Below, piece by piece: positions 20,036-58,095 of a stretch of DNA of 64,000 bases. Under the pieces are notes generated by a model that saw only the letters and a list, made by a program, of their open reading frames with translations, ran no database searches and was not told where the DNA came from. The stretch is from Pyrinomonadaceae bacterium (lineage in GTDB: Bacteria > Acidobacteriota > Blastocatellia > Pyrinomonadales > Pyrinomonadaceae). Position numbers and translations under genes: made by a program. Every line of letters begins with the position of its first letter. The first letter of the stretch is position 1. The DNA is taken from contig JAJQRF010000012.1 of the NCBI GenBank assembly GCA_021228405.1, positions 62,001 through 126,000 on the forward strand. The letters run 5' to 3'.

Positions 20036-20110
20036 TTGGTTTATCCTCCGTTAGAATTTATTTGCATATTAGCATAAGTTTTTTTGATTGCAACAACATT
20101 TTTACATCAA

Positions 20111-20425
20111 AAAACATCCGCGGCGGATCAAAAACCATCCGTGACAAAAGCAAATTCATCTGCGACGAAGCCGATCGCAAGTCAGACAGAGCCTGTCGGA
20201 GTTCCGACGGATCAAATCGCAAGTCAGACGGAGCCTGTCGGAGTTAAGACAGAGCCGATCGCAAGTCAGACGGGAACAATCGCAACTGCGACGAAGACTG
20301 CCGGAGTCGGTTTTGAATTTGTCGCAGTTGATTTTGAGTTTGCCGGAGTCGGTTTTGAGTTTGTCGCAGTTGATTTTGAGTTTGTCGGAGTCGGTTTTGA
20401 GCCCGTCGCAGTTACTTTAACGCAA
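20111..20425. repeat. 21-bp periodic array A (15 units)
   Basis: Fifteen consecutive units start at 20111 and every 21 bp after it (20132, 20153, 20174 ... 20405) with no indels. The later units share a core such as GTCGGAGTTNNGAC or GTCGCAGTTGATTTTGAG; the first three are degenerate. Odd and even units alternate (GCCGGAGTCGG versus GTCGCAGTTGA), giving a 42-bp superperiod at the right end. Open frames here exist because 21 is divisible by 3 and are not evidence of coding. It abuts the repeat cluster at 20433. Confidence 0.9.
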
Positions 20426-20432
20426 AAGGATT

Positions 20433-20645
20433 GGTAAAAACTTAAACTAATTTCCTTTGAACGTAAACTTAACAAAAAAATTCTGAAAGGATTCTGTCCG
20501 TTGATGTGCGGAAAGGCTTTGCCTTTCCGTAAATCAAAATGATCGGTAAAAACTTAAACTAATTTTCTTTGAACATAAACTTAATAAAAAAGTTCTGAAA
20601 GGGCTCTGCCCGCTGATGTGCGAAAAGGCTTTGCCTTTCCGCAAG
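20433..20645. repeat. Two direct copies of a ~100-bp repeat (113-bp spacing)
   Basis: Copies start at 20433 and 20546 with GGTAAAAACTTAAACTAATT, differ at scattered positions and both end in the palindrome GGCTTTGCCTTTCC. They follow array A immediately. Confidence 0.85.
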
Positions 20646-45628: not shown

Positions 45629-46189
45629 ATGGGACTTGCAAAACTCAAAACCAAAATCAGCATTGAAGAATATCTCGACGGCGAAGAGTTGAGCGAAATT
45701 CGTTATGAATACATCAACGGCGAAGTTTACGCGATGGCTGGCGCGAGCCAGAATCATAATCGAATTATCAGAAATTTTCTTACTTCGTTATCGAATCACC
45801 TGCAAAATTCCCCGTGTGAGCCTTTCAGCGAAAATATCAAAGTCCGGGCGGCTGAAGAGGTTTTTTATTATCCCGATGTGCTGGTAACTTGCGAAGGCAA
45901 TTTTTCAAATCCTTTTTATGCCGAACAGCCTGTTTTGATTATCGAAGTCATTTCGCCTTCGACCGCGCAGATCGACCGCCGGGAAAAACTTCACGCTTAC
46001 CGGCAAATGCCGAGCGTTCACGAATATGTCGTCGTCGAACAGGAAAAAATCTCGATCGAAATTCATCGCCGGCAGGAAAACGGCAACTGGATCACGTATT
46101 TTTTTACGCGCACCGATGAAGATTTCACGCTCGAATCCGTCGATCTTACTTTGAGAATCGATGAAGCTTACAAACCCGTGAATTTTTAA
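45629..46189 (+). CDS. Uma2 family (DUF820) protein, paralogue of 1688-2254
   Basis: A 186-residue protein starting MGLAKLKTKISIEEYLDG. It is similar along its full length to the Uma2 protein at 1688 (VYAMAG, PDVLVTC, LIIEVISPSTAQIDRREKL, YVVVEQEKISIEIHRRQENG). The PD-(D/E)xK-like acidic positions are kept. A TAAAAT box lies 9 nt before the ATG, again with no Shine-Dalgarno. It is followed by the 21-bp array B. Confidence 0.88.
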   Translation: MGLAKLKTKISIEEYLDGEELSEIRYEYINGEVYAMAGASQNHNRIIRNFLTSLSNHLQNSPCEPFSENIKVRAAEEVFYYPDVLVTCEGNFSNPFYAEQPVLIIEVISPSTAQIDRREKLHAYRQMPSVHEYVVVEQEKISIEIHRRQENGNWITYFFTRTDEDFTLESVDLTLRIDEAYKPVNF

Positions 46190-46304
46190 TTTCATACCGA
46201 ATCCACAGATCAGGCAATTAAACGTTATCAAAACAAAAAGAACGGTGATCGACCGTTCTTTTTGTTTCGTATTGATCTTGAGCAGATAGAAAGGCGGCGA
46301 CTGC

Positions 46305-46640
46305 CGGGATTTTTGCAGTCCGACGGGCTTGCGCATCGTTCAAATGGAGCTAAAAGATGCAGTTTCGGGGTTCCGAACCGCAAAGATGGAGCTTTTTGCT
46401 CCAAAATCGCGGCTTTTTGCTCCTCGACCGGGGTTCCGGGCACCACCTTTGCCACTTTTTGCTCCGCTCGTGGAGCAAAAAGCTCCATCTTTGCGGCTTT
46501 TGGCTCCTCAATCGGAGCAAAAAGCTCCAAACTTCCTGCTTTTTGCTTCATCACCGGAGTTCAGAGCACCAACTTCGCGGCTTTTTGCTGTCTGAGCGAA
46601 GCCCGAAACTCCAATTGAGGAGTTTTTTGCTCCATTCGGT
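46305..46640. repeat. 21-bp periodic array B (16 units)
   Basis: Sixteen units start at 46305 and every 21 bp after it (46326, 46347 ... 46620) without indels. The core is GGAGCTTTTTGCTCC or its reverse complement GGAGCAAAAAGCTCC, occurring in both orientations in the same register, with 6-7 variable bases between cores; the third, ninth and tenth-type units carry GGTTCCGGGCACC or GAGTTCAGAGCACC variants. Open frames in several phases result from the 21-bp period. It fills the gap between Uma2 and the SNase-like gene. Confidence 0.9.
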
Positions 46641-46730
46641 TCGGATTTAAAATTAAAAATCCGAACACGTTCGGCATTCGGATTTCCGGTCGTCCGCAAT
46701 ATATTTCAACTGCTCCGGTCGAATTCTGGT

Positions 46731-47843
46731 TTAATTCGATGCGCTGATCAGATTTTGCAGAAGCGTCAAAATTTCCGAATCGACCTTATCGGAAAAAGTA
46801 CCGACCTTGACGGAAACGTTTTTCCCGTTGGCGATCTTTTCGAGGATCGGTTTTTTGACCTCATACAAAAGCCCTTCGCGCACACTGTTTTCACCCTGTT
46901 TCGAGAACCTTTTCGCTTTGCCGAGGTTTATTTTTATCTTATCGACGGTCACGATCAGCTCGTTGTATTTTAGAAAACGAAAATCTCTCGATTCCGAATC
47001 GACACCGACGAGATACGCGTTTTTTCTGCCCGCGTCCTCGTTTCCGTCATAGTAAAGATACGCGATCTGAACCGTTAAAGCCTGTCTGCCGTCATCTTCG
47101 GGCACATTCAGCTTGAACATCGGTGTCGCAACCATCCCGAATTTCAACGAAGGCTCGTAGCCGACGAGCAAACCGCCGATGTTCTGAAAATTTGCGGGCA
47201 ATTTGATGCTCGTTTCGGGTGCCGCCGCCAGTTTTTGCGACTCGGAACTTAATTCGCGGCGAACGACGATCTTTTGCGGTTTCGTGGTTGTGCCGAATTG
47301 TTCGAGCGTCGTTCTTTCTTCTTTGGCAATTTCGCCCTGCTGACGGCGTTTTTCATCCTCTTCGGCACGAAGTTCCCAAGCCGGCTTCAGATTTTCCACG
47401 CTCCAAATGCCGCGTTTTTCCATTCTCGCCTGTTTTTCATTGTCCTGATAAGTGCGGCTTTCAAATTCGCTCTGCCCGGTTTTTTCGGGCAAAGCATACC
47501 AAGCCGCGCCGTCGCGGATCATTTGATTGCTGATGTCAACGCCGTTAAGACTCAATAATCCGACCGTGTATTTCGGCGTTACGCGCAACGGTTTGAACTC
47601 GACCATTTTGCCGAACGTCAGCGAACTCAGATGATTTTTTACTTCCTTTGAAAAGGTCTGCTCGGGTCCGGGCACCTCGATAAACTGCAGAACTGCCGTC
47701 ACTTTTCCGGCGGGAAGTTCGATCACAACGGTTTTTCCGTCAAGCACATCAACGACTTTTCCGAGAAATTTACCTTGCGAAAATGCCGAATTTGCCAACA
47801 AAAAAGTCAGGCAAACGAGAAGAAATACCTTTAAATTTTTCAT
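46731..47843 (-). CDS. Secreted SNase-like (thermonuclease fold) protein, active site degenerate
   Basis: A 370-residue protein with a signal peptide (VFLLVCLTFLLANSAFS). Residues about 25-150 match the staphylococcal nuclease OB fold (KFLGKVVDVLDGKTVVIELP ... GAAWYA, then RGIW). The two catalytic arginines look replaced (VLQFIEVPGPEQ and TPKYTVGLL where nucleases have RL..DTPE and YGR), so nuclease activity is doubtful. Residues 190-370 form an unrecognised beta-rich domain. It begins 5 nt after the NtrC-like regulator's stop, so it is in the same operon. Confidence 0.8.
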   Translation of the reverse strand: MKNLKVFLLVCLTFLLANSAFSQGKFLGKVVDVLDGKTVVIELPAGKVTAVLQFIEVPGPEQTFSKEVKNHLSSLTFGKMVEFKPLRVTPKYTVGLLSLNGVDISNQMIRDGAAWYALPEKTGQSEFESRTYQDNEKQARMEKRGIWSVENLKPAWELRAEEDEKRRQQGEIAKEERTTLEQFGTTTKPQKIVVRRELSSESQKLAAAPETSIKLPANFQNIGGLLVGYEPSLKFGMVATPMFKLNVPEDDGRQALTVQIAYLYYDGNEDAGRKNAYLVGVDSESRDFRFLKYNELIVTVDKIKINLGKAKRFSKQGENSVREGLLYEVKKPILEKIANGKNVSVKVGTFSDKVDSEILTLLQNLISASN

Positions 47844-47848
47844 AAATT

Positions 47849-49255
47849 TCAGCGTGTTTCAAGATTATATTCGCGCAAACGGCGATAAAGCGTCGAAGGA
47901 GAAATGCCGAGAAGCTCCGCAGTTTTACCGCGATGCCAACCCGTCTGGTCGAGCGCGTTCAGGATTTGCTGACGCTCGATGTCGCGCAGATTGGTCGGCG
48001 AAACATTTGCGGGCACGTTCTGAAACGTGTTCGTCACGTTCGTCTGCGGTTCGCTGTAACTGAACGAAACCATCGTTTTTTCAGAATTGTGAACGACTTC
48101 CGGCGGCAACTCCTTGGTCGTGATCTTACCGTTATCACAAAGCAGAGCGGCGCGTTCGAGGCAGTTTCTCAATTGGCGGACGTTTCCCGTCCAACTGTAG
48201 TTCGTCAGCGCGTCGATGGCTTGCGGCGAAAGTTCGGGCGCGTTTACGCCGACGACTTTGTGCAAAAGATGCCGCGCGAGCGGTTCGATGTCTTCACGAC
48301 GTTCGCGCAGAGGCGGAATGTAGATTTCAAAACTGTTGATGCGGTAGAGCAGATCGGCACGAAAAACGCCTTCGGCAACCGATTGGCGCGTGTTGCGGTT
48401 GGTCGCGGCGACGAGCCGCACATCGACCTCGACCTTTTTCACGCCGCCGACGCGGAAAAACGCCCGCGTTTCGAGGGCGCGGAGAAGTTTTGACTGCAAT
48501 TGCGACGGCATTTCCATCACTTCGTCAAGAAAAAGAGTGCCGCCGTCGGCGATCTCGAAAAGTCCGAGCTTTCTGGCGCGCGCTCCCGAAAACGCACCCG
48601 CTTCGTGTCCGAAAAGTTCCGATTCGAGCAGAGAATCCTGCAAAGCGGCGCAGTTCAGGTCGATAAAAGTTTTGTTTGTCCGGCGGCTCAAACGATGGAT
48701 CGCCTGCGCGATCAGTTCCTTTCCCGTTCCCGATTCGCCCGTGATTAAAACGGAAGTATCCGAAGGAGCAACGCGTTGGACGAGCCGCAAAACTTCCTTC
48801 ATCTGCGGCGATTCGGCGACAATGTCGGGCAAATCTTTGTTGGTTGTGCGTTCGAGCTGGGCGCGAAGCCGCTGATTATCGATCTTAAGCTGTTGTTTTT
48901 CGGCGGCTTGCGTGACCAGCGCGGCAAGTTCGGCGATGCGGTATGGTTTGGTGAGATAATCATACGCGCCGAGCTTCATCGACTCGATCGCGGTTTCGAC
49001 CGTTCCCTGCCCGGTCAGCAGGATCACTTCGGGCGGATTTTGCGATTTTTCACGCAAACGCCGGAGCAGGGAAATCCCGTCGAGGCGCGGCATATTGATG
49101 TCGCACAAAAGCACATCGAAATCCTGCGTTTCGAGTAATTCCCACGCCGCTTCGCCATCCGAAGCCGTTTCAACTTCGTGCCCCTGCCGGCTCAGTTCCT
49201 TCTGAACCACCAGCCGCAGATTTTTTTCATCGTCAACTACTAAAAGTTTTGCCAT
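47849..49255 (-). CDS. Sigma54-dependent NtrC-family response regulator
   Basis: A 468-residue protein from MAKLLVVDDEKNLRLVV; an in-frame TTG at 49270 is less likely. The receiver domain has the phosphorylated Asp in LLCDINMPRLDG. The AAA+ domain has Walker A GESGTGKELIAQ and Walker B GGTLFLDEV; its sigma54-contact loop reads GAFSGA instead of GAFTGA. A Fis-type HTH (HRGKTAELLGISPSTLYRRL) ends it. It activates sigma54 promoters after phosphorylation. The kinase gene lies 41 bp upstream. Confidence 0.95.
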   Translation of the reverse strand: MAKLLVVDDEKNLRLVVQKELSRQGHEVETASDGEAAWELLETQDFDVLLCDINMPRLDGISLLRRLREKSQNPPEVILLTGQGTVETAIESMKLGAYDYLTKPYRIAELAALVTQAAEKQQLKIDNQRLRAQLERTTNKDLPDIVAESPQMKEVLRLVQRVAPSDTSVLITGESGTGKELIAQAIHRLSRRTNKTFIDLNCAALQDSLLESELFGHEAGAFSGARARKLGLFEIADGGTLFLDEVMEMPSQLQSKLLRALETRAFFRVGGVKKVEVDVRLVAATNRNTRQSVAEGVFRADLLYRINSFEIYIPPLRERREDIEPLARHLLHKVVGVNAPELSPQAIDALTNYSWTGNVRQLRNCLERAALLCDNGKITTKELPPEVVHNSEKTMVSFSYSEPQTNVTNTFQNVPANVSPTNLRDIERQQILNALDQTGWHRGKTAELLGISPSTLYRRLREYNLETR

Positions 49256-49296
49256 AAATTTGGAGAACAAATCTTATTTTGAAAGTTAAATTCCGG

Positions 49297-50943
49297 TTAA
49301 GATTTGTTGGGGAGAAAAATGGAAAAAGTCGTTCCTTTTCCGATGTTTGAACGAACGCTCAAGCGTCCGCCGTGTTCGGTGATGATGCCGTAACAGACGG
49401 CTAAACCGAGTCCGGTTCCCTTGCCGACTTCTTTGGTCGTAAAGAAAGGCTCGAATATCTTCGACATATCTTCGGGTGAAATCCCGACTCCGGTGTCTTC
49501 GACTTCGAGAATAATGCGGGTATTTTGCGGGAAGGCACGGAAAGTGAGCGTTCCGCCGTCGGGCATTGCGTCGATCGCGTTTGTGGCGAGTGCGATGACG
49601 GCTTGCTGAATTTGTCCGCTGTCGCCCGTAATAAGCGGCAGATTTTCGTCAACTTCAAATTTGAACTGAATGTTGTCGCCGCGCCGCTGATGCGAAATTA
49701 AATTTGCTGACGATCTTAAAACATCGCGCACGTCCATCGGATGGCGGTTTCCGGCGCGAACGCGGCTGAAATCGAGCAATCCCGTCGTGATCGATTTACA
49801 GCGAAAGGCTTCCGATTTGATTAAACCTAAATATTCCTTCAAATCGTCAACTTCTTCCGATTCGCCGAACGCACCTTCGGCAACTCTTTGTTCCAAAGCC
49901 TCGGCGCAAGCCGCGATCGTCGCCAGCGGATTATTGATCTCGTGAACGACCCCGGCGGCAAGCCGACCGACGGCGGCGAGCTTTTCGGCGCGTCCGACGG
50001 CGTGAATCGCTTCGACGCGCACCGTCACATCTTCGCCGACCGTGATAACGTGCGTGACTTCGCCCGATTCGGCATCGCGCATCGGAACCTTGCTGACGAG
50101 CCAATGCGTCGGCGTTCCCTTTTCGTTGACGGTTTGCTGTTCGATGCGCTCGATTCTGCCCGTCCGAAATGCACGTTCAAATTCCTGTTTCAAACGTCCC
50201 TGCGGATATTTCGCCAAAACTTCAAAAACGTTGCGCCCGATGACGGCATCGCGCGGCATTCCCTGCACACCGTTTTCGCGGTGACGATTCCACGTCACGA
50301 TTCGATAGTCGCGGTCGATGACATAAATTGAAACCGGCAAAGCATCCAACACGGCTTCGGTGAATTTGCGATGTTCTTCACGCGCCAGGCTGATCGAAGT
50401 ATTGATCGCCGTTTCGTAATGCGACGAAAGATTGACCGACATCGCCGCCATCTGAGTTGCGGCATCGATCAGACGCGCTTTCACTTCACTGAAGTCTTCT
50501 TTTTCCTTAAATCCCACCAAAACCGCGCCTTTGACCGTTCCGTTGATGTGAAGCGGCGAAACGTATTCGAGCTTGTGAACGCGGTCTTTCAGCAAAAATT
50601 CTTCTTCATTTTCCTGCAGATACGAAACTTGCGGCGGCAGAAAATCGTGCCATTTTTCAAACTCTCTTTTCCGCAGAAACTCCTTCCTGACTTCGCCTTT
50701 TCTGTCAAACGCACAACTTATCAAGCCGATATTTCCGAGTTCCATCACGAACGCCGAGATTTCCGCACCGACCCCTTGCAGAATGGCTTCCGCAACGCGC
50801 AGTGCGGCTTTTTTCGGATGAACCGTGAACAACAAACGACGACCGAGTTCGGAAATAAATTTTAATTCGAGCGAACAATCATTCGCTTCACCATCAGGCA
50901 AATGCACACGACCGTTTCGCTTGGCAGTTATCGGGGCTATCAT
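49297..50943 (-). CDS. Soluble NtrB-like sensor histidine kinase
   Basis: A 548-residue protein without membrane segments. A GAF-like N-terminus (about residues 25-185) is followed by a PAS domain ([20 protein letters not shown]), a HisKA domain with the phosphoacceptor in [13 protein letters not shown], and HATPase_c ([28 protein letters not shown]). It is the likely partner of the adjacent NtrC-like regulator; the same operon includes the SNase-like gene. Its ligand is unknown. Confidence 0.95.
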
Positions 50944-57575: not shown

Positions 57576-57749
57576 CGCGTTTACTCGGCGATATTGTTTT
57601 TGAAAGCAAAAAAGCCTTCGTTTACAAGATCAAAATCGCAGGTTTGATCTCAAATCCGTAAATCAGTAAAACGGCAGAAACGACAAAATATGTATGAAAT
57701 TCATACTTGAAATGGGAAAAAAATTCTCGCTTTTGCGGGAATCGTGCCT

Positions 57750-58022
57750 GATTCCCGAGAATCTCGCGCAGATTCCTAAGAATTCCGGAAAGGTTCTTAA
57801 GGATTTTACAGAGATTCTTAAGACTTCCGCGCCGATTCTTCGGAGAGTTTTGCGGATTCCTTTGAGCTTCGGAAAGATTCTTTTGAATGTTTGGCAGATT
57901 CGTGAGAACGGGCGAAAGGCTCTTGAGAGTTTTAATCGGATTCCCAAGAGCGGCTCACCGATTCCCGAGAATCAGCCGCCGATCCATCGGAATTTCCCGC
58001 CGATTTTATCGATTTGATTGTA
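57750..58022. repeat. 21-bp periodic array C (13 units)
   Basis: Thirteen units start at 57750 and every 21 bp after it (57771, 57792 ... 58002) with no indels. Each begins GATTC or a near match followed by YNNGA, e.g. GATTCCCGAGAATC or GATTCTTAAGA, then 7-10 variable bases. In phase +2 the frame would read heptapeptides starting Ile-Pro or Ile-Leu. The region 57576-57749 and 58023-58095 holds nothing else that I recognise. Confidence 0.9.
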
Positions 58023-58095
58023 ATTTGAAACAGCAAGCGGGAATCTATGACCACGATTGATAATTGATAAATATATTCTTGCTCTCCGCTATCGC

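Follow-up and report, generated by a model that had tools for sequence, protein, structure and literature searches.

The locus considered here, an array of short tandem repeats between a Uma2-family gene and a group of kinase, regulator and nuclease genes, raises the question of how repeat units can occur in both orientations while keeping a single 21-bp register. The array (array B) occupies positions 46345–46638 (no strand assigned) of the window, i.e., the whole stretch of 64,000 nucleotides analysed here, and consists of 14 units of 21 bp, each made of a 15-bp core, GGAGC-N5-GCTCC, and a spacer of ~6 bp. The preliminary description had it extend over 46305–46640; the array itself is real, but it starts at 46345 rather than at 46305. 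Its further claim, a register without phase shift, holds: laid out in rows of 21 bases, all 14 units have exactly this length and fall into a single frame. The mean match at lags 21/42/63 amounts to 0.52, as against 0.30–0.31 at the neighbouring periods 20 and 22 (periods 14 and 28 reach 0.41) and a maximum of 0.40 among 60 sequences of 64 kb simulated with a first-order Markov model.

The T-core units of array B start at 46387, 46408, 46450, 46492 (TTTTG), 46534, 46576 and 46618, the A-core units (GGAGCAAAAAGCTCC) at 46471 and 46513, and five diverged units at 46345, 46366, 46429, 46555 and 46597. The core centre is TTTTT, or nearly so, in seven units and AAAAA in two, while the further centres (TAAAA, TCCGA, TCCGG, TCAGA, CCGAA) are so varied that the T and A cores are to be seen as two members of a wider set. 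The best T-core unit, GGAGCTTTTTGCTCC, lies at 46388–46402 (+), and the two A-core units lie at 46472–46486 (+) and 46514–46528 (+). Both clean A-core units sit in the odd phase, whereas every even-phase unit between 46408 and 46618 is of the T type, mostly with a degenerate left arm (GCGGC, GCCAC, CCTGC), which amounts to a 42-bp alternation; TRF also detects the array, with this same period of 42 bp.

How far are these units truly inverted? The arms GGAGC and GCTCC are complementary, and flipping the core alters only the central 5 bp (TTTTT/AAAAA), so that the “reverse complement of the core” reported earlier comes down to these five bases and to just two clean A-core units. A real inverted copy is nevertheless present, in the form of a 26-bp perfect inverted repeat of core and spacer (left arm at 46378–46403, +; right arm at 46471–46496, −), the cores of which are exactly 84 bp (4 × 21) apart. 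Because it takes in ~10 bp of spacer, this repeat is stronger evidence for inversion than the core flip. The register is kept on flipping because, with two palindromic cores placed on a grid of 21 bp, an inversion between them leaves that grid as it was, and the length is unchanged because any in-place inversion preserves it. Core palindromy, one of the two explanations initially proposed, is thus borne out by the complementary arms on the 21-bp grid: together with length-preserving inversion it explains the flip in array B, and a dedicated enzyme is unnecessary.

Pfam searches confirm the genomic setting described beforehand. The Uma2-family gene (45629–46189, +; PF05685, E 1.6e-33) is the left neighbour of array B, and the gene of an SNase-domain protein (46731–47843, −; PF00565, E 2.2e-8) is the right one, followed by those of an NtrC-type sigma-54 response regulator (47849–49270, −) and of a PAS histidine kinase (49297–50943, −). 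No relatives of the SNase protein were confirmed in GTDB contigs. The array thus lies between the 3′ ends of convergent genes and has a hairpin on either side: past Uma2, a perfect 16-bp hairpin that has A/T runs and looks terminator-like by inspection (46231–46267, no strand assigned), and, where the SNase gene ends, another terminator-like one, reading leftward (46655–46687, −). Since such hairpins already flank the array, termination is probably supplied by them and need not be its own task. As had been cautioned, open frames are uninformative about coding at this locus, each of the six frames having only 1–3 stops over 46305–46640.

Array B is not alone. By nearest hits the host genome (5.72 Mb) belongs to Pyrinomonadaceae, a neighbouring peptidase having its confirmed hits, among named genomes, in Pyrinomonadaceae and other Acidobacteria MAGs. 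In a census that covered 2.0 Mb of it, with arrays counted by their identity averaged over one, two and three periods, 64 arrays were found at base period 21 and 13 at period 20, while all other base periods yielded at most 7, except 42, the double of 21; likewise, the averaged autocorrelation of the arrays peaks only at 21, 42 and 63. Trimming left 63 arrays, most of them 160–350 bp long and a few of them questionable (one extends over 5 kb at the end of a contig, another lacks a consensus). Comparison of their column profiles gave 25 pairs above every shuffled comparison, which form 11 multi-locus motif groups, in addition to many singletons. GGAGC arrays, for instance, are found at C19:23527, C17:12488 and the array B locus. 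The window itself holds one or more sibling 21-bp arrays with a different motif at 20065–20502 and another, with a GATTCTTAAGAATnnnn-type core, at 57755–57973 (57688–58054 in a wider delimitation), neither with an assigned strand; the motif of the latter recurs in arrays at C17:55824, C7:17975 and C7:238688. Arrays are mostly outside predicted genes (49/59; 28/30 in the first array set), as judged by a simple hexamer gene caller whose individual assignments may be wrong. Among the gaps that hold them, divergent gene pairs are not significantly depleted (p 0.13) nor convergent pairs significantly enriched (p 0.07), and in a test of DNA curvature the phased A-tract signal is only weakly above shuffle. 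An ancestry from 7-bp repeats (3 × 7) was rejected, the pooled arrays being devoid of lag-7 or lag-14 signal. Literature searches, of partial coverage, returned no description of 21-bp arrays in Acidobacteria. Two further observations concern repeats. L022:8968–9308 and L035:11924–12125 have the motif TGATATGAGCATCTTTCAC in common, in arrays with a period of 20.5 (two units take 41 bp), so that no reading frame is kept; L040:726–2627 holds repeats of another kind, of 63 bp and 84 bp, clustered and with inverted segments inside them.

Within the arrays, units deviate from their consensus at about a quarter of positions, yet unevenly across columns: the best columns, in the core, diverge by ~1–5% and the worst, in the nearly random spacer, by more than 50%, with significant heterogeneity (p < 0.01) in 32/56 arrays, to which shared descent of the units can contribute. 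The spacing is far more rigid. Same-strand steps measure exactly 21 bp in 462 cases, against four of 20 and one of 22, and in a second count 372/386 steps are in register (~14 off-register) for 3214 substitutions, even if detection by lag favours regular arrays and somewhat overstates this rigidity; few off-register copies appeared when 150–210 bp of flanks were scanned around the arrays. Dyad symmetry is significant in 18/30 arrays, and inverted units were called in 31/61, some of the single calls near array edges being due to chance, while the neighbouring forward units are mostly still on the grid. When an inverted unit stands between forward units, the two spacings usually sum to 42 (22+20, 18+24, 21+21), which means that the flip preserves total length, as in-place inversion predicts.

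The taxonomic distribution of the arrays was examined in six other genomes of the class, sampled over 80–200 kb each with the thresholds of the host census, and no sample held more than one comparable array (G013, 200 kb). Arrays of 7 bp are common in the group, and relatives carry short tandem arrays of 7–9 bp. At the family level, where the relatives compared belong to other genera, no array matching the motif of array B was found in the 118 other genomes searched; two apparent matches in genus g9 were rejected as single short stretches in ordinary sequence. More generally, searches at the sensitivity used showed no conservation of the arrays in relatives, and in G013 the match to the orthologue of one array-linked HTH gene (73% identity) spans ~70 bp around the gene start but excludes the array, so that the arrays seem to turn over quickly. 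Relatives also show 7–8-bp tandem repeats followed by their own reverse complements, which form long hairpins between or after genes (L062:406–516, L183:6437–6555, L180:8680–8783, L107:7309–7821), and one of them, G022, has a CRISPR-like array with the repeat GTTTCAATCCCACACTGGTCCGATTAAAAC (L096:15–520 and 2315–2555).

Taken together, conserved half-sites, free spacers, fixed phase and orientation tolerance are what characterises tandem sites bound by proteins along a single helix face, 21 bp being about two turns of DNA. We hold with moderate confidence that array B belongs to a genome-wide set of intergenic arrays of helically phased, orientation-tolerant putative protein-binding sites, in which flips arise by length-preserving inversion. 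Units would be bound by DNA-binding proteins, and a spacing of 20–21 bp would put successive sites on the same helix face and favour their cooperative filling. Selection for helical phase may maintain the spacing, and the outcome may be local control of chromatin or of promoters, each array having its own motif and some motifs being common to several loci. Palindromic cores would act as short inverted repeats between which inversion or template switching could occur with length preserved, the regular grid bringing inverted cores back into place, and either orientation would be tolerated since a near-palindromic site reads almost alike both ways. A putative bound protein, as envisaged beforehand, would agree with what is seen of phase, cores and orientation. 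A spacing shared across many motifs nonetheless calls for either a large number of proteins or a single one indifferent to the motif.

Among the neighbours of the arrays, several paralogous small genes had an array on their 5′ side, and all 138 multi-member gene families of the 2.0-Mb sample were tested for such arrays. Four small families ranked first, with a 20–21-bp array (period 20, 20.5 or 21) 5′ of every testable member: a family of ~220 residues (5/5 members; p 7e-5), a Cro/C1-type HTH_26 family (4/4; p 5e-4), a ~120-residue family with a basic RKSERKSGLTRKK-like C-terminal tail (4/5, and 5/5 after inspection) and a further family (2/2). These P values are uncorrected, and only the ~220-residue family survives, on its own, a correction for 138 tests. 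The HTH_26 paralogues with 5′ arrays are found at C19:44807, C19:432518, C20:63814 and C4:38677, and this family has 9 matches in the host genome vs. 0–3 in relatives, HTH homologues being present in G013, G023 and G058; the RKSERKSGLTRKK-tail family (C19:107646, C19:254775, C19:462706, C7:127949, C7:200892) has no Pfam match for the member tested. Array motifs differ between paralogues, including those of HTH_26, which would fit a co-divergence of arrays and readers if the two are coupled, but is also expected from fast array turnover. It is a tentative and rather unlikely extension of our reading that the whole constitutes a candidate DNA-address system, in which many array motifs with one two-turn spacing would be paired, on the 5′ side, with small paralogous proteins (HTH_26 and Pfam-less families) of co-diversifying specificities. 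None of the four families has a member next to array B, and the association does not directly explain this array.

The most serious competitor of phased binding sites, if itself somewhat improbable, is that the arrays are neutral minisatellites, born in this lineage from replication slippage or recombination as tandem units of a strongly preferred length of 20–21 bp and then decaying by substitution, palindromic units having the advantage that their hairpins promote the slippage. Such an origin would account for the many unrelated motifs, the restriction of the arrays to one lineage, the apparent turnover at an orthologous gene and the other short tandem arrays (7–9 bp) of relatives. It accounts less well for the uneven conservation of core and spacer columns, for register shifts that are very few given the number of substitutions, for the same motifs at unlinked loci and for arrays lying 5′ of the same gene families; moreover, we know of no slippage process with so sharp a preference for 21 bp. 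The phase may be set by selection or by a duplication ruler.

It is unlikely that the arrays act as RNA, their transcripts forming hairpins for termination, stability or regulation. Array B does outperform shuffles in folding, with z −7.7 and −6.8 for the two strands, and arrays are commoner in 3′ gaps (81/311) than in 5′ gaps (54/352), these counts not being independent, but good folding is expected of inverted repeats of any origin, terminator-like hairpins already stand on both sides of array B, and no Rfam model matches at gathering score, the sub-threshold matches being mostly microRNA models. Units kept as hairpins should show complementary changes in their arms, whereas compensatory changes are not enriched (43 cells, against 70.8 ± 6.5 after shuffling; 704 changes are one-sided), which argues against per-unit hairpins of RNA or DNA alike. 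This shortage suggests that a unit tends to retain one or both of its halves in good state, though it could also stem from the way half-degenerate units alternate every 42 bp.

It is very improbable that the arrays are REP/BIME-like mobile palindromes spread by RAYT transposases. They are dispersed, extragenic, palindromic and of alternating orientation, and PF01797 genes are present (9 matches in the host genome), but their motifs are many and unrelated, compensatory changes are absent, and the number of RAYT genes is within the range of array-less relatives (for example, also 9 in G002, 15 in G009). That the arrays encode a protein of heptapeptide repeats is scarcely plausible: the period is a multiple of three (21 bp = 7 codons) and long ORFs cross array B (46262–46618, +; 46228–46554, −), but not a single frame is open in 19/61 arrays, equivalent positions are also taken by arrays with periods of 20 and 20.5, which break the reading frame, and the hexamer gene caller predicts no gene over array B. 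Least credible of all is a site-specific recombinase actively flipping units as a switch, although inverted units do keep register, from which the preliminary description took a site-specific mechanism to be a possible implication: the pattern is also what one expects of ordinary inversion between palindromes, flips occur in about half of the arrays, whose motifs are unrelated, the arms are only 5 bp long in array B, and no recombinase was found among its five adjacent genes tested. Altogether, the arrays are a genome-wide, motif-diverse, phase-locked class that does not match REP/BIME, coding repeats or known RNA families in the tests applied.

If selection on phase is real, the host genome would offer ~180 natural experiments on site placement (extrapolated from 64 in 2.0 Mb), with spacing fixed and orientation, motif and copy number varied, along with a defined search for array-reading proteins, and would link intergenic repeats to small gene families of no known role. 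If the arrays are neutral, they would bring to light a way of duplicating DNA by a sharp 20–21-bp ruler, which is likewise unexplained.

Among known systems, iterons and the tandem operators of plasmid replication or partition loci are tandem sites about two helical turns apart, some of them dyad-symmetric. The arrays resemble them in their two-turn spacing (462 steps of 21 bp; some of 20/20.5), in the dyad symmetry of some and in the combination of a conserved site with a variable spacer (32/56 arrays); unlike iterons, they number ~60 in 2 Mb of chromosome contigs, with many motifs and no linked replication gene. With REP/BIME, reported to be protein-binding sites and to keep their palindromes through complementary mutations (PMC2817692), they share dispersed, palindromic units of alternating orientation and a largely extragenic location, but they differ in their 20–21-bp unit, fixed phase and array-specific motifs (at least 11 shared groups plus many singletons for 63 arrays, instead of one or a few motifs), as well as in the lack of compensatory changes and in a RAYT number no higher than in array-less relatives. 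BRE of Bordetella, a VNTR minisatellite, is one repeat sequence found in tandem, in varying number, at several intergenic loci (PMC3110155); our arrays also have tandem units at several intergenic loci, except that here many motifs share one period. Beggiatoaceae are reported to carry abundant intergenic TAACTGA direct repeats, a single 7-base motif proposed to be regulatory (PMC4679880), and thus, like the host, many intergenic sets of short repeats in one lineage, while the 21-bp period, the many motifs and the inverted units distinguish the host arrays from what is described there. As for the flips, two reports describe sequence by short palindromes of the chloroplast trnH-psbA spacer that flips in place with length unchanged (PMC2903610) and microinversions, i.e., small palindrome-associated flips in place without length change (PMC3123225); the in-place flip and the conserved length are shared but, compared to these accounts, flips in the host take place inside tandem arrays, each core coming back near a fixed grid. 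Set beside these systems, the arrays look like an undescribed class of evenly spaced putative protein-binding sites.
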